Source: a virus. From it: a stretch of DNA of 40,475 nt. Of the stretch, positions 1,271 through 40,475 are shown one piece after another. The stretch spans positions 1 through 40,475 of the IMG/VR virus record IMGVR_UViG_3300028577_000023; one strand, given 5' to 3'. Both the position numbers and the translations under genes were made by a program. Every line of letters begins with the position of its first letter. Positions within the stretch are counted from its first letter, which is position 1. The notes beneath the pieces were generated by a model. That model was given only the letters and a program-made list of their open reading frames with translations, was not told the origin of the DNA and did not search any database.

Positions 1271-1476
1271 TTCTCCCCCTTTAAAACTGATTCAAAAATC
1301 ATTTCAAACATTTTAAGTACTTGTTTTTTTTCTAGATTCATATGAGTAAAAAGAGCTGCAAAGTGCATACATAATCCAATTGCTTCAGGTGGATTAATAT
1401 CGTTTAACTGAAAGAATTCTCTCATCAAAGATATTTTCTTTGAATGTTCTAAATACTTATCTTGAGTGTATTCCAT
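1267..1476 (-). CDS. Small hypothetical protein in the RNA-repair operon
   Basis: About 69 residues, helical (MEYTQDKYLEHSKKISLMRE), with no recognised domain. The stop of the RNA ligase gene and this start overlap as TGATG, so translation is probably coupled; a GTG one codon earlier (1479) is the alternative start. Because it sits between the RNA ligase and the cysteine-cluster protein with no spacing, it is likely expressed with the RNA-repair enzymes, but that does not identify its role. Confidence 0.65.
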   Translation of the reverse strand: MEYTQDKYLEHSKKISLMREFFQLNDINPPEAIGLCMHFAALFTHMNLEKKQVLKMFEMIFESVLKGEK

Positions 1477-2498
1477 CACTTCTCAAATCCTAGGTTAATT
1501 ACTTTAAAGCTAATTGGCTTATGTCCTTCAAGATTCTCTTGAGATCTTATGACTACACCCTCTCTCTGCTTACCATTGGAGTACACACCTTCTCCTCGGA
1601 GCTCAAGTCCATCTCGTATGAAACGGTGTCCCCACTCTATGACTCTCACCATTGGGAATTTCAGCTGAATGCTGAGCTCTCTGAGTTCAGTAAAGGTGAA
1701 ATATCTCTTGTTGAAGATGTTGTATGCCGAGAACATGAAGCCATCAATGTCCTTCAGTCCCATTGGATTACTCTGGATTCCAGGGCCACATGTCTCCCAT
1801 TGAATAGCAACTCCCTCAGGCAAGTTCTCTTCAAGCTTGTACTTTTCAGCGACTTTCCAGTAGCCATTGTCAGGATTTCTGACCAATTCCAGGTTCCTAG
1901 AGCAAATGCCGAATTCTCCTTTCCAACGATATGCAGTCGTTGAGGAGCCATCGGCTTTCTCTGTCATGTACCATGCTTTGTCAACCAAAGCGTCAACCAG
2001 CTCGGGATATCTCTGGTAGTTGAGCTCGTCGGTCTTTGGGATGAATTCTGGGAAGTATCCCTTAGCGTTTCCTTGAAGATGAGCCGGAACAGGCTTGTGA
2101 TACTTGGTGACTCCGAAGAATAGAGTCATGTCATCTCCAACCTCGCGACCTTCTCGGTACGGTTCAGGAATCGGCATGATGAGCACCTCACTTGGTGCTG
2201 CTTTGAATCTACGCATCTTGACTCGCCAACCGCTCGCTTCCATGAATTTCATCCCTTCATTGGGAGGAATTAGAGAATCTGGTAGGTAGACATCACATAG
2301 GCTGCCTATCTCAAACTGATCTTTCTTGACGATGCCTTTCCACTTTCCACCTGCTCCGCAAACTACTGTCGCTGAGACAATGAAGTCAGCTGTAGGGATT
2401 GGTTCTAGAGCAACTATCTTGCCCACATAGACAAGTTTCGCACTCTCAAGAACAGTGAATGGTGCGGGTTCAAACGATGGGTAAGTTTCAAAGCTCAT
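1476..2498 (-). CDS. RNA ligase, Rnl5 / DRB0094-like
   Basis: A 340-residue ATP-dependent RNA ligase that would join 3'-OH and 5'-phosphate RNA ends. The nucleotidyltransferase motif I is TEKADGSS, with the predicted adenylylated lysine at about residue 181. Motif III lies near VAIQWETCGPGIQSNP, motif IV is REGVVIRS, and motif V is ISFKVIN near the C-terminus. The first 130 residues form a separate module with the pattern VGKIVALEPIPTADFI, like the OB-type N-terminal domain of the Deinococcus DRB0094 ligase family (Rnl5), and the length fits that family. GAGGAT lies just before the ATG. The gene overlaps the upstream 57-residue ORF by 11 bases. Its neighbour is RtcB, an RNA ligase with opposite end chemistry, pointing to RNA or tRNA repair. 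Confidence 0.88.
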   Translation of the reverse strand: MSFETYPSFEPAPFTVLESAKLVYVGKIVALEPIPTADFIVSATVVCGAGGKWKGIVKKDQFEIGSLCDVYLPDSLIPPNEGMKFMEASGWRVKMRRFKAAPSEVLIMPIPEPYREGREVGDDMTLFFGVTKYHKPVPAHLQGNAKGYFPEFIPKTDELNYQRYPELVDALVDKAWYMTEKADGSSTTAYRWKGEFGICSRNLELVRNPDNGYWKVAEKYKLEENLPEGVAIQWETCGPGIQSNPMGLKDIDGFMFSAYNIFNKRYFTFTELRELSIQLKFPMVRVIEWGHRFIRDGLELRGEGVYSNGKQREGVVIRSQENLEGHKPISFKVINLGFEK

Positions 2499-2661
2499 TT
2501 TTATCCTCTAACGCTACCAGTTTCTTGGTTGTATTGTGTGTCCTATTGCCTTTGCAATACGGACACCTTTTGTTATTCCTACATGACCTATCAAAAGACT
2601 TTGATCCACGGTAAGGCTTTCTATGCTCCTTCTTGGATTCAATCGCTTTCTCTAGGCCCAT
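2488..2661 (-). CDS. Small zinc-finger-like protein between the two RNA ligases
   Basis: A 57-residue basic protein. I chose the ATG at 2661 because it follows the RtcB stop directly and has AAGGA just upstream; an earlier in-frame ATG at 2694 would lie inside rtcB. The sequence is lysine/arginine-rich, with cysteines in SCRNNKRCPYCKGNRTH, enough for one small metal site. It overlaps the start of the RNA ligase gene. A nucleic-acid-binding helper for one of the ligases is possible but unproven. Confidence 0.65.
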   Translation of the reverse strand: MGLEKAIESKKEHRKPYRGSKSFDRSCRNNKRCPYCKGNRTHNTTKKLVALEDKNEL

Positions 2662-2662
2662 G

Positions 2663-3847
2663 CTAGTCCTTATATGGGTCAAATTCGCGTTCATCTGCCA
2701 TACAAACGCCTATCGGGGTTAAGGTGTGTAGAATGTTGACTGTAGCCTTATGAGCGTCTAGAACCTGTTCTATTCGCTTGTATGCATAGGGTGATTCGTC
2801 AAGTCCACCCCCGCGAAGCTCAACGGCAGCGGTACGCATCCACTGGTCGTGATCAGGGCGTTTGACGAGTCCTTCGGTAAGTTGTCTACCAGTCTTTCTG
2901 CATGTCTTTCCTTTTGCTTGAGTTCTTCCCATAGCACGGCCCGCTCCATGGATGGTAGAATACAACGCAGCTTGCGATTCAGGCTCTTGGACTCCTTCGA
3001 GGATGACAGATATATCTCCCATAGATCCCCCAACAAAGCCTTTTTGACCTGGAAAGGCCGGAGTTGCTCCCTTGCGAACCACCCAAAGATCTTTACCGAA
3101 ATGGTTTTCTCTCCAAGCAAAGTTATGGTGATTATGGATTTGTTCAACAACATTTGCTCGTAGTATTCTGGCCACCCTTTCACATACCCAATCTCGCCCT
3201 GCATAAGCGTAGCGACCAGCAAGTTCCATACATGCAAGATATTGCTGTCCAAGGTCTGAAGACTCATCAAATATGACCGGCTCGGCATGTACTCCATCTT
3301 TTCCTCCTCCTGCTTTTACATAGTGCGTCGCAATAGAATGACCGAGACCTCTACTACCAAAATGCACACCAACCCAAACACGATTAAGCTCGTCCACGAA
3401 GATATCCACGTAGTGATTACCACCCCCAACAGTACCCAGCTGATCGCGTGCTTTATCTTTGAGCCCTTTGAGGATGTCCAATTCTACCCAGAGAGGTTCA
3501 TCAAACAATTCATGATCAACTTTCTCACTGTTCCTTCTCCCCATCCCGAAGCTTATGTGCTTCTGGATCTCATTCATTGTCCTATAAATATTTCCTTTGA
3601 CTGCACTAGCATCCACATCAAGAAGCACAGCTTTGTTCCCGCAAGCGATATCAAAACCCACACCATTGACGTTGATAGCTCTATCGTAAGCAACCACACC
3701 GCCAACAGGCACGCTGTATCCGATGTGGTGGTCAGCCATAAGAGCCACATATTCAGGTTTTTTAACATAATTCATTACCGCCTTCATTTGTTGCACTGCT
3801 TCAGGCAACGGTTCGCCCCACACGGGGACGTTATCAATCATCTTCAT
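2663..3847 (-). CDS. rtcB: RNA-splicing ligase RtcB
   Basis: A 394-residue RtcB-family ligase, which uses GTP and manganese to join RNA 2',3'-cyclic phosphate or 3'-phosphate ends to 5'-OH ends. Family signatures are present in order: VGFDIACGNKA (metal cysteine), TVGGGNHYV (GGNH motif), VHFGSRGLGH, a histidine pair in QIHNHHN, RKGATPAFPGQ, and TIHGAGRAMGR, where the histidine is the expected guanylylated residue. All key positions appear intact, so the enzyme is likely active. The start at 3847 is preferred: AGGAG precedes it and homology-like sequence begins there (KMIDNVPVWG); the longer frame from 3967 runs back through two overlapping small genes. Length is close to the usual 400 or so. 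It is followed directly by the small zinc protein and Rnl5. Confidence 0.95.
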   Translation of the reverse strand: MKMIDNVPVWGEPLPEAVQQMKAVMNYVKKPEYVALMADHHIGYSVPVGGVVAYDRAINVNGVGFDIACGNKAVLLDVDASAVKGNIYRTMNEIQKHISFGMGRRNSEKVDHELFDEPLWVELDILKGLKDKARDQLGTVGGGNHYVDIFVDELNRVWVGVHFGSRGLGHSIATHYVKAGGGKDGVHAEPVIFDESSDLGQQYLACMELAGRYAYAGRDWVCERVARILRANVVEQIHNHHNFAWRENHFGKDLWVVRKGATPAFPGQKGFVGGSMGDISVILEGVQEPESQAALYSTIHGAGRAMGRTQAKGKTCRKTGRQLTEGLVKRPDHDQWMRTAAVELRGGGLDESPYAYKRIEQVLDAHKATVNILHTLTPIGVCMADEREFDPYKD

Positions 3848-3992
3848 CTTCTTTCTCCTCGGGGATTGGCCCCTCATGGATTGCCTGTACATATACGCCA
3901 TGTTCGGAGTAGTCTCCCATATGGCTTTCCCATATCCAGGCTGCTGCCTCTTTATCCGTGATCTCAATCTGTATCGTCAGCACTCTTCCCAT
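3834..3992 (-). CDS. Small acidic-tailed hypothetical protein
   Basis: A 52-residue ORF starting MGRVLTIQIEITDKEAAAW and ending with an acidic run PEEKEDEDD. Its end overlaps the rtcB start by 14 bases and its beginning overlaps the preceding 58-residue ORF by 29 bases. A longer form from an ATG at 4061 is possible but would overlap that gene more. The beta-strand-then-helix opening looks like a real folded mini-protein. No family was recognised; it may be coupled to RtcB translation. Confidence 0.55.
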   Translation of the reverse strand: MGRVLTIQIEITDKEAAAWIWESHMGDYSEHGVYVQAIHEGPIPEEKEDEDD

Positions 3993-4140
3993 GTCTAGCC
4001 AGCCATTTTCTACGGTTTCTAGTCTTACAATCGCACCAGTATTTCCCTTCCCAGTGCCCATCTTCCGGATGAGGCTTTTTACGCCTCAAATCCTTCTTGC
4101 TCATCTGTCTTCTAGTCTGTCTACTCTTTCTTTCAGACAT
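3964..4140 (-). CDS. Small basic hypothetical protein
   Basis: A 58-residue ORF: MSERKSRQTRRQMSKKDLRR followed by a middle stretch HWEGKYWCDCKTRNRRKW and a short polar tail. AAGGA stands six bases before the ATG. It overlaps the membrane mini-protein upstream (4101-4247) by 40 bases and the 52-residue ORF downstream by 29 bases, each in a different frame. The strong positive charge and the CxC pair suggest RNA or DNA contact, but function is unknown. Confidence 0.55.
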   Translation of the reverse strand: MSERKSRQTRRQMSKKDLRRKKPHPEDGHWEGKYWCDCKTRNRRKWLARHGKSADDTD

Positions 4141-4247
4141 TTTATTTCCTTATAAATCCGATATGGGTTGTATTGACATACTTCGGGCCCATGTTGGTAT
4201 AATAAATAAATAAATATTCCTAACAATAAAGCAATAAACATTCTCAT
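4101..4247 (-). CDS. Single-pass membrane mini-protein after the SPFH gene
   Basis: A 48-residue ORF in ATGA overlap with the stop of the SPFH gene. Residues 3-17 form one hydrophobic segment (MFIALLLGIFIYLLY); the rest is polar, with a short charged helix at the end (LKERVDRLEDR) that could form a coiled coil. The coupled start, plus a membrane segment beside an SPFH membrane protein, suggests a partner at the inner membrane. Two cysteines, C24 and C37, are present. This is an inference from context. Confidence 0.55.
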   Translation of the reverse strand: MRMFIALLLGIFIYLLYQHGPEVCQYNPYRIYKEIKCLKERVDRLEDR

Positions 4248-5131
4248 TTGACCTCAAAGAAAGGAATTGCTCCGGAAGTGACATGAGGAAGCTTACCGTC
4301 CCATTTCTGGACGCTTTGCCATTGAATAAGTTCTAGAGTGACTGATTTTGCGAGTACAAGATTGGCTTTGGCCTCTGATTCGGCTTGAAGAATGGCACAT
4401 TTTGCCTGACCTTCGGCCTTGGCAATCTGTTTCTTCGCCTCTGCTTCGGCCTCACGCAGCTCGTTTTCGCGCTGTTGAGCCCTTTGCATGGCTTCAATCT
4501 TAGCATTGAGAGCTGCAATGACGTTTGTGGGAAAGTGAAACCTTCCAATGAGATAAATACGTGAGAGTACGATACCGATTTGTTCGAAATCAGCTCGCAC
4601 GTGTTCTTCCACGTCCTTAAAAAAGCATTCTTTTCCGGAATACAGATCTTCAATGCATGTTTTAGATGCACTTTTGTTGATTGCGTCCCGTATGTAGTTT
4701 CTTATGAATACATGGGTGATCTCATCCATCCCACGACGATATTTCTGGAATATCTTCGGGATAGCATCAGGTCTAAGGTGGTACGTGATTCCGATATCAG
4801 CATGTACAGCCATCCCCTCAGATGTCTGAAAGCTGAATCCTTCACGTTCACCTTCCCATGTATCGTTCTGCTCAAAGATGGGAAACTGATAAACAGTCTT
4901 CCACGGAGCAATCCAGTGCATTCCCACATGCAGCTCTTTCGACTCTACGCCCTTAGAGTCTCCGAGCATGTCAATCACCACACCGACATAGCCTGGACTG
5001 ATCATCTTGAAGAACATACACCATGTTGCAAACACCACTAAGCAACAAAGTAAAGCTACTTTAAACCTAAGTGCCAATTTTAGCAACAACATTCCAACCG
5101 ATTCTTTCGGTTCACCCTTGTAGTACACCAT
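4244..5131 (-). CDS. SPFH (stomatin/prohibitin/HflK-C type) membrane protein
   Basis: A 295-residue protein. The start at 5131 has GGAG eight bases upstream; the longer frame from 5191 would run into the tRNA gene. After a short polar N-terminus there is one transmembrane segment at about residues 23-43 (VALLCCLVVFATWCMFF), then the SPFH core starting ISPGYVGVVIDMLG, and a long charged helix near residues 215-260 rich in alanine, glutamate and lysine (coiled coil, AEAEAKKQIAKAEGQAK), the layout of prohibitin and HflK/HflC proteins. Such proteins form large ring scaffolds in the membrane and modulate proteases. In a phage it might affect host HflKC-FtsH, membrane integrity or superinfection; none of this is shown here. 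Confidence 0.85.
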   Translation of the reverse strand: MVYYKGEPKESVGMLLLKLALRFKVALLCCLVVFATWCMFFKMISPGYVGVVIDMLGDSKGVESKELHVGMHWIAPWKTVYQFPIFEQNDTWEGEREGFSFQTSEGMAVHADIGITYHLRPDAIPKIFQKYRRGMDEITHVFIRNYIRDAINKSASKTCIEDLYSGKECFFKDVEEHVRADFEQIGIVLSRIYLIGRFHFPTNVIAALNAKIEAMQRAQQRENELREAEAEAKKQIAKAEGQAKCAILQAESEAKANLVLAKSVTLELIQWQSVQKWDGKLPHVTSGAIPFFEVK

Positions 5132-5164
5132 CTTATGCTCCAAAATTACAGCATGTTTATATTG

Positions 5165-5238
5165 CGGCCGGTGATGAGTTCGAGTCACCATTTCTTAGCA
5201 CTTGGAGTCCTAAGCGTCCTACCTTAGACGAACCAGCC
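5165..5238 (-). tRNA. tRNA-Trp-like (CCA anticodon) with enlarged anticodon arm
   Basis: Reading the minus strand: a 7-base-pair acceptor stem GGCTGGT/ACCGGCC with discriminator G, a D-arm GTCT/GGAC, and a T-arm GGTGA-CTCGAAC-TCATC are all clear. The anticodon arm is CTTAG-GACTCCAAGTG-CTAAG, so the loop is 11 bases instead of 7, or a 7-pair stem with one G-G mismatch around CTCCAAG. The only T33-anticodon reading is T-CCA-A, which gives tryptophan, and the G discriminator fits Trp. No CCA tail is encoded. The body is good, the decoding identity is uncertain. Confidence 0.55.
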
Positions 5239-5241
5239 ATA

Positions 5242-5313
5242 CGGGCTATGATGGAATTGAACCATCGCTTCATCCGTGACAGGGATGCGTGACTACCACT
5301 GCACTAATAACCC
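5242..5313 (-). tRNA. tRNA-Asp (GTC)
   Basis: A canonical 72-base cloverleaf on the minus strand: acceptor GGGTTAT/ATAGCCC (one G-T pair) with discriminator G, D-arm with loop AGTGGTAG, perfect anticodon stem CATCC/GGATG with loop CTGTCAC (anticodon GTC), and T-arm GATGG-TTCAATT-CCATC. The 3' CCA is not encoded and would be added. It lies four bases before the Trp-like gene in the transcription direction, so both probably come from one precursor. Confidence 0.9.
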
Positions 5314-5316
5314 AAA

Positions 5317-5421
5317 CGAGGGAAGTGGGATTCGAACCCACGGTATTTCTACTACAATGCGATCGGTAACGGGTTGCGTCCACCACTACACTGCTGCTTT
5401 CAGCCACTCAGCCATCCCCTC
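5317..5421 (-). tRNA. tRNA-Ser-like gene with about 24 extra bases in the anticodon loop
   Basis: A perfect seven-pair acceptor GAGGGGA/TTCCCTC (one G-T) with discriminator G, a class II D-arm TGGCTGAGTGGCTGAAAGC typical of tRNA-Ser, and a T-arm GTGGG-TTCGAAT-CCCAC. Between D-arm and T-arm there are 54 bases, about 20 more than in a normal class II tRNA. The best fold gives an anticodon stem GCAGT/ATTGT (two G-T pairs), then a 31-base loop, and a short variable arm GTA-GAAA-TAC. No canonical seven-base loop with a serine anticodon is evident. It could be an intron-bearing or decoy tRNA, or a degenerate one. Confidence 0.5.
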
Positions 5422-5472
5422 AAAAGAGTGCGCGGGTTGTATCGCATATCTCATCCCTTACGGGCCACTCAT

Positions 5473-5545
5473 TGCTTGCTGTAGGACTCGAACCCACCAC
5501 CTGTTGAGTACAAAACAACCGCTCTACCAGATGAGCTAAGCAAGC
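5473..5545 (-). tRNA. tRNA-Thr (TGT)
   Basis: A 73-base cloverleaf: acceptor GCTTGCT/AGCAAGC with discriminator A, D-arm GCTC-ATCTGGTA-GAGC, anticodon arm GTTGT-TTTGTAC-TCAAC (last pair T-T; anticodon TGT), five-base variable loop, T-arm GTGGG-TTCGAGT-CCTAC. CCA is not encoded. Its first ten bases overlap the end of the upstream protein gene (stop TAG inside the acceptor and D-linker), so the mRNA must be cut to release the tRNA. Confidence 0.9.
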
Positions 5546-7340: not shown

Positions 7341-7667
7341 TGACGTGACTGTGCACTGGGAACGCATTGTTTCCTAGACTTACTATACATTTTTTGAGTA
7401 ATTATAGGTAGTAATTTTTTTGGTAGGATCTATTAGGAAATAGTAAGGAAAAGGTGTAAATAGTTTACTTAGTTGAGAAAGTGAGGTCTCAATGAAACAT
7501 ACGTGGAGATATAGATATATAAGGTACCGGTACTGATTAAGGTCATACCCCCACCCTCTTTTCTATGCTTTCCTTGGCTGGTTCCATACCTTCGTTCCCA
7601 CATGTTCATGCAGTTACCTAAGTAAAGCTTGTTTATGTTAGTGATTACCGAGTGAGTAGATGATAGC
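7341..7667. other. AT-rich non-coding region with small palindromes
   Basis: No credible gene of normal length is seen. The stretch has short dyads: GTAAA-TAG-TTTAC near 7457, TTGAGA/TCTCAA near 7473-7493, and the ten-base palindrome GTACCGGTAC near 7524. A 14-codon ORF (MKHTWRYRYIRYRY, from 7493) has GAGG upstream and is almost only basic and aromatic residues; I do not call it a gene. It could be a control region or origin-like segment between convergent units. Confidence 0.4.
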
Positions 7668-8334: not shown

Positions 8335-8649
8335 ATGAAGACACAAGAAACAACCACAACGAACCTAGCGGATTTTGGATCACGTGAGAGATGGATGCTA
8401 GTAGAGCTATTGACCGCATGGGATAAGCAAGGACTACCTGATAACTTCTACGATGAAGAAGTTGTACCGATGATGAATCGTAATAGCGGCAATGTGTTCC
8501 TAACCAACAGCGAGTTTCAAGTAGCTATGTTGAATGATAACAAGCTTGAGATGTGGCATAGCTGCCCCAATTGTGGGCATGAAGGCTTTAGCGAAGATTG
8601 TCAGATCAACGAAGATAACGAATGCAACGAATGTTGCGAGGGGGAATAA
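8335..8649 (+). CDS. Hypothetical protein with C-terminal zinc ribbon
   Basis: A 104-residue protein with AAGGAG before the ATG. The N-terminal part is helical and acidic (RERWMLVELLTAWDKQGLPD) and includes NSEFQVAMLNDNKLEMWHSC. The C-terminus carries CPNCGHEGF...C...CNEC, a likely single zinc ribbon. It is the first gene behind the predicted promoter and is immediately followed by the next ORF. The role is unknown; small zinc-ribbon phage proteins often bind nucleic acid or host polymerase. Confidence 0.7.
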   Translation: MKTQETTTTNLADFGSRERWMLVELLTAWDKQGLPDNFYDEEVVPMMNRNSGNVFLTNSEFQVAMLNDNKLEMWHSCPNCGHEGFSEDCQINEDNECNECCEGE

Positions 8650-39102: not shown

Positions 39103-39762
39103 ATGATAGTGGACTGCGTAAGTGATTTGCATGGATTCCTCCCCAAAATGGATGGGGGAGACCTATTGATTGTAGCTGGAGATCTAACAGCTAGGGACAC
39201 TGAATACCAGCACGATGATTTTTTCGTATGGCTTAACAATCAAGCCTACACAAAGAAGATATTTATCGCTGGGAATCATGATAACTACCTTGAGAAGAAC
39301 AATGAAAAGTTCCTTAAGACTTTAGAGAAGTCTGACCTAGAGTATCTATGCGACTCAGGCACAGAGTTCCAAGGAGTCAAGATTTGGGGGTCACCCTGGA
39401 CTCGAACTTTTCCTGGGATGAATCCACATTGCAAAGCTTTCACTTACGATACCGAGAAAGAGTTGTCTGAGAAGTGGATGTTGATTCCTACGGACACTAA
39501 CATTCTTATCACCCATTCCCCTTCCTTTGGAAACTATGACTGGGTGAAGAATCCAGATGGAACCGTTGGCCCTTCTGTTGGAAGTCTATTGCTATGGATG
39601 TGGATGCTGACTATGATCCCTCACCTAAAATTGCATGTGACAGGTCATATCCATGAGGCGTACGGTAATTCCGTACATCCAAATGGCATTCACCTTGTAA
39701 ATGCGAGTCATGTTAATGAGAGATATAAACCAGTGAACAAACCAGTACGGATTATCCTATGA
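39103..39762 (+). CDS. Calcineurin-like metallophosphoesterase
   Basis: A 219-residue protein with all metallophosphoesterase motifs: VDCVSDLHG (motif D-x-H), IVAGDLT (GD), FIAGNHDNY (GNHD), ILITHSPSFG and VTGHIHEAYG (GHxH). Such enzymes use two metal ions to hydrolyse phosphomono- or diesters. In phages they can act on nucleotides, 2',3'-cyclic phosphates or RNA ends, so it may prepare RNA ends for RtcB or Rnl5, though it stands on the other strand and has its own promoter. It may instead act in nucleotide metabolism. Confidence 0.85.
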   Translation: MIVDCVSDLHGFLPKMDGGDLLIVAGDLTARDTEYQHDDFFVWLNNQAYTKKIFIAGNHDNYLEKNNEKFLKTLEKSDLEYLCDSGTEFQGVKIWGSPWTRTFPGMNPHCKAFTYDTEKELSEKWMLIPTDTNILITHSPSFGNYDWVKNPDGTVGPSVGSLLLWMWMLTMIPHLKLHVTGHIHEAYGNSVHPNGIHLVNASHVNERYKPVNKPVRIIL

Positions 39763-40064: not shown

Positions 40065-40475
40065 GCTTTACCACTATTCTGCTCAGCCTTTGAAGAAACT
40101 TAGACAAGATTTCCACGATATGCACTGGGCTCGGATTCCTATCTTTCAGAAGCCACATGGATTCTGGATCAGCGTAGAGGACTATCCTGAAGATCAGAAC
40201 TGGTACTCTTGGTGTGAAGGAGAAGAGTTTAGACCTGAATGTCTTGAGCATCGGTATCATGTGATCCTGAAGAAGAAGGCTAAGATCCTTCATCTCAAGA
40301 ACGCAGAAGAACTTGAAGCTTTTAGCCTGAAATATGCATCCAATGATCCGGAGGACTTCAATAAGAAGTTCCCGATGGAATACATGGACAATCTGACCGG
40401 ATATGTAAGAAAACCTTACATTTACTTGATAGACTGGCAAACAGTGATGAAAGAGTATGACGGTATAATCATAGC
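40051..40475 (+). CDS. N-terminal part of ADP-ribosyltransferase-like protein (continues at base 1)
   Basis: The ORF opens with MLPTKLYHYSAQPLKKLRQD, and contains KPHGFWISVEDYPEDQNWYS-WCEGEEFRPE. With the left-end part it gives WYYGWDCASGCIWN. The HYS opening, a KPxGFWxSxED core and the YGWDC end match a family I associate with ADP-ribosyltransferase-like toxins; this is pattern memory, not a search. If correct it would modify a host target (protein, tRNA or nucleic acid). The full protein is about 207 residues when the ends are joined. The frame is intact across the junction. Confidence 0.75.
   Translation, partial: MLPTKLYHYSAQPLKKLRQDFHDMHWARIPIFQKPHGFWISVEDYPEDQNWYSWCEGEEFRPECLEHRYHVILKKKAKILHLKNAEELEAFSLKYASNDPEDFNKKFPMEYMDNLTGYVRKPYIYLIDWQTVMKEYDGIII
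40339..40475. repeat. Right copy of terminal direct repeat
   Basis: Matches bases 1-137 except base 40349 (C versus A at base 11). Its open frame is the same as in the left copy. One copy should be removed when the genome is closed, giving a unit of about 40,338 bases. Confidence 0.95.

Follow-up and report, generated by a model that had tools for sequence, protein, structure and literature searches.

A compact island of two RNA ligases, a phosphoesterase and tRNA genes in ~40-kb soil phages, with a probable role in RNA repair

We analysed a stretch of viral DNA (IMG/VR record IMGVR_UViG_3300028577_000023, positions 1-40,475; the whole stretch is hereafter called the window), a ~40-kb soil phage whose minus strand carries, at 1476-5545, genes for an Rnl5-type ATP-dependent RNA ligase, the GTP-dependent RNA ligase RtcB, an SPFH protein, two ordinary tRNAs and two non-standard tRNA-like RNAs. 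Together with a nearby MPPED2-like phosphoesterase gene, these form a compact RtcB-Rnl5-phosphoesterase-tRNA island that is new in phages of ~40 kb, the pairing of RtcB with other ligases being already known from jumbo phages. We consider it fairly probable that the island serves RNA repair and tRNA supply against host defences that cut tRNAs. The evidence comprises intact catalytic residues, conserved gene order and strand, linkage, co-occurrence and co-divergence in related phages. A first-pass annotation had already placed an Rnl5-like ligase, RtcB and four tRNA or tRNA-like genes in this minus-strand interval, and domain searches, ARAGORN and Rfam agree with that assignment.

The Rnl5-type ligase (1476-2498, minus strand; 340 aa) consists of an N-terminal OB domain (PF21189, residues 22-109) followed by a nucleotidyltransferase domain (RNA_ligase, PF09414, residues 175-333, E 2.7e-20) in which Lys181 is the nucleophile. 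It matches phrog_968 (E 6.8e-40), and its closest solved structure is that of NgrRnl (5cot, E 1.6e-29). The model TIGR02306, proposed earlier as a check on this protein, scores it at 92.4 bits, under the cut-off of 151, and we therefore call the protein Rnl5-like rather than a DRB0094 equivalog; the companion check of RtcB with PF01139 succeeded (E 1.1e-67). In all 13 relatives aligned, Lys181 (motif KADGSS), D183, E235, E313 and K332 are invariant, and by motif these were equated with the five catalytic residues of NgrRnl (K170, D172, E227, E312 and K326), an enzyme that seals nicks (PMC9931718). At the level of the family, the window protein would be expected to seal 3'-OH/5'-PO4 nicks. RtcB (2663-3847, minus strand; 394 aa from the ATG at 3847) also matches PDB RtcB entries at E ~4e-23, and its H300 (the HGAGR histidine), D66, C69, N144, H145, H162 and H241 are invariant in the nine sequences aligned (9/9); by analogy with its family, it would join a 3'-phosphate or cyclic phosphate to a 5'-OH. 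Lys181 and the RtcB histidine, on which the first-pass annotation had hung its repair reading, are thus both conserved throughout (13/13 and 9/9). Because the catalytic residues of Rnl5 and RtcB are kept, both enzymes look active.

A close RtcB is encoded by 209 viral stretches, many of them from ~40-kb soil phages. When loci were anchored on Rnl5, RtcB was found in 15 of 47, in every case on the same strand and less than 4 kb away, and in 11 of these 15 it lay directly upstream of Rnl5 by 20-635 bp. The relatives keep the two ligase genes adjacent, usually with tRNAs, rather than far apart. The divergence of one protein parallels that of the other (Mantel r 0.89, p 2e-4), and the linkage is kept at mean identities of 59% and 71% for the two ligases. 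tRNA genes also track the ligases: they lie within 4 kb of Rnl5 in 8/14 loci with RtcB versus 5/31 without it (p 0.01), and among RtcB-positive records of 34-43 kb, the presence of any PF09414 ligase is associated with that of tRNA genes (12/2/2/11, p 4e-4). Different classes of ATP-dependent ligase are repeatedly paired with RtcB or with tRNA-like genes. For example, a distinct short RNA ligase of the phrog_548 class (L107:1357-2043) lies 240 bp upstream of RtcB (2285-3457) in a phage, also represented by record L043, that has nearby tRNA genes as well. A terminase-anchored sample of 28 further records contained RtcB in one, a PF09414 ligase in seven and tRNAs in nine, low counts which indicate that the island is accessory rather than core; the same sample rules out that RtcB belongs to the core genes of the structural clade.

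The ends of the record (1-137 and 40339-40475) are 99.3% identical, with one mismatch in 137 bases. This overlap indicates a complete genome of ~40.34 kb, in which the Rnl5-RtcB island and the phosphoesterase are neighbours. The phosphoesterase (39103-39762, plus strand), which the first-pass annotation missed, surfaced through clustering of the proteins encoded next to Rnl5. It is a binuclear metallophosphoesterase (PF00149, E 1.4e-11; MPPED2 3rl4, E 1.8e-23). Its gene and that of Rnl5 are separated by the genome junction and ~2 kb, and they lie on opposite strands here but on the same strand in most relatives. Across 21 sequences, H10, D27, N58, H59, H138, H182 and H184 are invariant and D8 is nearly so. 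In a de-duplicated set, the enzyme occurred in 15/15 loci with both RtcB and Rnl5 versus 12/29 Rnl5 loci without RtcB (p 8e-5). Among near-complete records, all 8 that have both ligases also have the phosphoesterase, as do 9 of 20 that have RtcB alone, 5 of 10 that have Rnl5 alone (one of these copies being broken, and the absence of RtcB being judged on the available stretch of each record) and 2 of 13 that lack both. Class III enzymes include the 2',3'-cyclic nucleotide phosphodiesterase SpdA (PMC4222275), and calcineurin-like phosphatases have been proposed as the end-healing step of RNA repair in jumbo phages (PMC7824862). By analogy, the window enzyme probably trims RNA ends.

All genes from 6378 down to 905 lie on the minus strand, in the order small open reading frames (ORFs), tRNA-Thr(UGU), a class-II-like tRNA-like gene, tRNA-Asp(GUC), a Trp-like tRNA-like gene, the SPFH protein, two small ORFs, RtcB, a small ORF, Rnl5 and more small ORFs. 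A simple scan found no minus-strand terminator-like sites among these genes, which fits a single transcript without proving it. All four RNA genes noted in the first-pass annotation are present, two being ordinary and two non-standard. tRNA-Thr(TGT) (5473-5545, minus strand) and tRNA-Asp(GTC) (5241-5314, minus strand) were both detected by ARAGORN, with Rfam scores of 60 and 58.5 bits, respectively. The 105-nt gene at 5317-5421 (minus strand) resembles a class-II, Ser-like tRNA and scores 40.9 bits against the Rfam tRNA model (cut-off 29); its anticodon loop is ~29-31 nt long, ARAGORN needs a 24-nt insert in that loop to draw it, and folding supports the expanded loop. The Trp(CCA)-like gene at 5164-5238 (minus strand) was found with relaxed ARAGORN settings only and has either an over-long anticodon stem of 7 bp with a G.G mismatch or an 11-nt loop; its cloverleaf fold beats those of shuffled sequences (z -2.6). 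At the same place in relative L004 (~8513-8590), the CCA of the window appears as CTA, with a degenerate T loop.

Expanded anticodon loops recur in relatives. The close relative L298 has, at the same place (~7475-7605), a partial homologue of 5317-5421 with a longer insert, and class-II tRNA-like genes with 37-nt and 24-nt loops occur at L043:1902-2020 and L023:14086-14207; in these three records the loops span about 24-44 nt. The opposite is seen at L122:866-933 and L123:1923-1990, where the anticodon stem of a tRNA-like gene is closed by just a 5-nt loop. Among the distinct tRNAs, Asn-GUU, Thr-UGU and Asp-GUC are the commonest anticodons and together account for 32 of 96. In addition, what appears to be a single tRNA lineage (GCTGG..TAGCTTAGTGG..CACCCCT) is present in the tRNA clusters of L022, L023, L040, L045 and L033, with anticodons that vary by phage (TGC, TAC, CAC, AAC and perhaps AAT), a pattern that suggests anticodon switching.

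Some relatives also encode a covariation-supported RNA family, which we name TLR-A, represented by nine distinct tRNA-like sequences of 89-118 nt (L022:14338-14441, L023:14426-14529, L040:10282-10386, L045:12298-12404, L054:2908-3014, L283:4570-4687, L287:1498-1605, L334:4724-4812 and L342:9592-9691); none occurs in the window. Its core is an invariant anticodon arm (GGCGAUGAGC...GUUUUCAUGC) in which a hairpin variable in sequence and length replaces the anticodon loop. In the alignment of the nine sequences, 98.3% of cells pair and 13/26 pairs show two-sided changes, including 7/7 acceptor pairs and 4/5 hairpin pairs, values that no shuffle matched, and RNAalifold recovers the identical structure unaided. 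With an earlier model built from seven sequences, members scored >100 bits and ordinary tRNAs <48 bits. The neighbour of TLR-A is usually an ATP-dependent RNA ligase, in most records Rnl5. In L287, which lacks RtcB and the PF09414 ligase, the neighbour is an RLIG1-like ligase (phrog_14301; L287:614-1222, plus strand) 276 bp upstream of TLR-A; a search for RLIG1 in a wider set, made to account for tRNA-rich phages without an Rnl ligase, returned L287 only. In L283 (20 kb), which also encodes TLR-A, no RtcB, PF09414 or other ligase was found, and these two records show that TLR-A is not strictly tied to RtcB or PF09414.

Several readings of TLR-A were rejected. As an intron-containing decoding tRNA it fails, as no excision yields a canonical 7-nt loop with U33, and where an archaeal-type intron would have a bulge-helix-bulge, the TLR-A arm shows a bulge of a single nucleotide together with a G/UUU internal loop. 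Since simple excision cannot restore a canonical anticodon loop, we think that TLR-A is non-decoding. A coding or tmRNA-like reading (ATGAGC after GGGG) was discarded because the frames differ among members and some stop at once, and a hammerhead or K-turn reading of GAUGAG... was discarded because, by eye, the needed residues are missing. No published account of TLR-A was found in the literature searched, a search limited in reach.

How might these components act together? Under the repair reading, an infected host would cleave tRNAs, or other RNAs of translation, with its defence RNases. RtcB would directly reseal breaks with 5'-OH and 2',3'-cyclic or 3'-phosphate ends, the products of metal-independent anticodon nucleases, and Rnl5 would reseal breaks with 5'-phosphate and 3'-OH ends, the products of metal-dependent RNases. 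The MPPED2-like enzyme would probably strip cyclic or terminal phosphates and so widen the range of usable ends, and the phage tRNAs would replace or buffer depleted species. Both parts have precedents as proposals: jumbo-phage RNA ligases as non-redundant repair enzymes (PMC7824862), and phage tRNAs as a means to counter host anticodon nucleases (PMC10264068). This reading is consistent with the conserved adjacency, with the phosphoesterase that accompanies the ligases and with the finding that different classes of ATP-dependent ligase are paired, more than once, with RtcB or tRNA-like genes. The repair island proposed in the first-pass annotation is partly supported; its substrates and activity, the healing of ends and the anti-defence role we infer.

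Several points weigh against it. The scan of window proteins, which covered part of the small ORFs, turned up no polynucleotide kinase; 5'-OH ends healed at the 3' side only would therefore be unsealable by Rnl5 without a host kinase. Moreover, Rnl5 enzymes are known for sealing nicks in duplexes, as NgrRnl does, not breaks in anticodon loops (PMC9931718). RtcB and Rnl5 alone show no significant association in the terminase-anchored genomes (p 0.33), and in many relatives one of the two ligases is missing, or tRNAs occur in the absence of an Rnl ligase (nine in L018). Finally, the association tests correct for common descent only in part: a phylogenetically controlled test of Rnl against tRNAs on the RtcB tree gave ~2.5 concordant and 0 discordant of 3 independent pairs, which is not significant and, with so few pairs, has low power.

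A rival view is that the components are independent accessory cargo sharing one variable region and each acting alone, RtcB for instance on damaged rRNA or tmRNA, Rnl5 at nicks and the phosphoesterase on cyclic nucleotides. The region is indeed highly variable in the terminase-anchored sample, many relatives hold single components only, and small cyclic nucleotides can be substrates of MPPED2-like enzymes (PMC10547211, PMC4222275). A shared variable region would not predict as much order as is seen, however: gene order and strand are kept, the ligases co-diverge, the phosphoesterase accompanies both ligases in 15/15 loci, and unrelated ligase classes pair with RtcB or tRNA-like genes. We regard independent cargo as rather unlikely. 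The view that the tRNAs only compensate for codon usage, with the ligases unrelated to them, seems highly improbable to us. Codon compensation is the classical explanation of phage tRNAs (discussed in PMC10264068), and this phage uses Thr ACA (24.8 per thousand) and Asp codons well, but two of its four tRNA-like genes, as drawn, could not decode in the ordinary way, the recurrent Asn-GUU, Thr-UGU and Asp-GUC set is narrow, and the presence of tRNAs follows the presence of ligases.

Alternatively, the ligases might serve the odd tRNA-like RNAs of the phage itself, with inserts in the anticodon arm being excised or nicked and RtcB and/or Rnl5 rejoining the ends in a splicing-like unit. RtcB seals tRNA exons after intron removal in archaea and animals. 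The anticodon loop at 5317-5421, ~24 nt too long, the longer insert in L298 and the 37-nt and 24-nt loops of L043 and L023 are what such processing would act on, as is TLR-A, with its invariant arm, its compensated variable hairpin and its position near ATP-dependent ligases (mostly Rnl5, RLIG1-like in L287). Yet neither a splicing endonuclease nor a canonical bulge-helix-bulge was found, simple excision of the TLR-A hairpin leaves no U33-containing loop of 7 nt, and none of the loops that 5317-5421 could yield has a Ser anticodon. TLR-A is also absent from the window and from most phages with both RtcB and Rnl5, and L283 has it without RtcB or a PF09414 ligase. We judge this explanation quite unlikely for the island. 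A related suggestion, that the insert-bearing RNAs (TLR-A and the expanded-loop class-II genes) are substrates or partners of the phage ligases, either processed by cutting and rejoining or acting as ligase-dependent decoys, strikes us as doubtful indeed; in its decoy version, the variable hairpin would divert host anticodon nucleases.

The repair reading also sets the island beside known systems. The first-pass annotation regarded the combination as undescribed, which holds for the compact unit in ~40-kb phages and not for the pairing as such: jumbo phages already combine RtcB with ATP-dependent ligases, proposed to serve different end chemistries (Iyer et al. 2021, PMC7824862). The ligase sets of BcepSaruman and BcepSauron resemble the island in having RtcB with ATP-dependent ligases, often with phosphoesterases and tRNAs; BcepSaruman has its RtcB on the same strand as a relative of the window Rnl5, at a distance of ~10.5 kb. 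Such jumbo genomes are larger than 200 kb, in contrast to ~40 kb here, where the ligases are neighbours along with tRNA-like genes. T4 shares phage-encoded RNA healing and sealing as well as phage tRNAs, and its Pnkp/Rnl1 tRNA repair is thought to counter host anticodon nucleases such as PrrC (PMC4933390); T4 relies on a kinase/phosphatase and Rnl1, whereas the island has direct sealing by RtcB, a separate Rnl5, an MPPED2-like enzyme and no kinase in the scanned proteins. In RtcBA operons and Rsr-Y RNA-RtcBA modules, RtcB likewise does the sealing within an operon devoted to RNA repair (PMC7790460), and some RtcBA modules have a tRNA-like partner, Y-RNA (PMC7824862). Unlike these, the island has no visible RtcA, RtcR or Ro protein, its partner is Rnl5, and the acceptor stems of its tRNA-like RNAs are complete. 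In bacterial Pnkp-Hen1 repair (CthPnkp), too, a binuclear metallophosphoesterase accompanies an ATP-dependent ligase, but as domains of a fusion that also includes a kinase; in the island the genes are separate, the phosphoesterase is MPPED2-like rather than the Pnkp phosphatase, and RtcB is added. TLR-A recalls RNA1, RNA2 and RNA3 of T5, phage-encoded tRNA-like stable RNAs of ~73-144 nt inside a tRNA cluster (annotation of AY543070). By eye these have no TLR-A core, whereas TLR-A has an invariant arm, a variable hairpin and RNA ligase genes nearby.

Elsewhere in the window, protein scans identified a terminase, portal, major head protein and RecT-like protein, together with a serine recombinase, RusA and a PD-(D/E)XK nuclease; the genome is that of a tailed phage. 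The SPFH/Band-7 membrane protein of the island (4244-5191, minus strand; PF01145, E 1.6e-28) also occurs in several relatives. A small Cys-rich ORF at 2488-2694, between RtcB and Rnl5, has an N-terminus similar to that of the L004 Rnl5 (MNANLTHIR), which suggests an insertion at the beginning of the ligase gene. A host search using the terminase as a prophage probe gave no match in 396 Acidobacteriota genomes, an empty outcome that proves little.

Two sealing chemistries, a candidate healing phosphoesterase and tRNAs, a spread familiar from jumbo phages, are here compacted into a ~40-kb phage, a small genome in which it can be tested why certain phages require RNA ligases of two kinds. The repair reading predicts that the hosts of these phages would attack them with RNases of both end chemistries. 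TLR-A, a covarying RNA encoded near more than one class of ligase, is concrete and new, and its function is open to direct tests.

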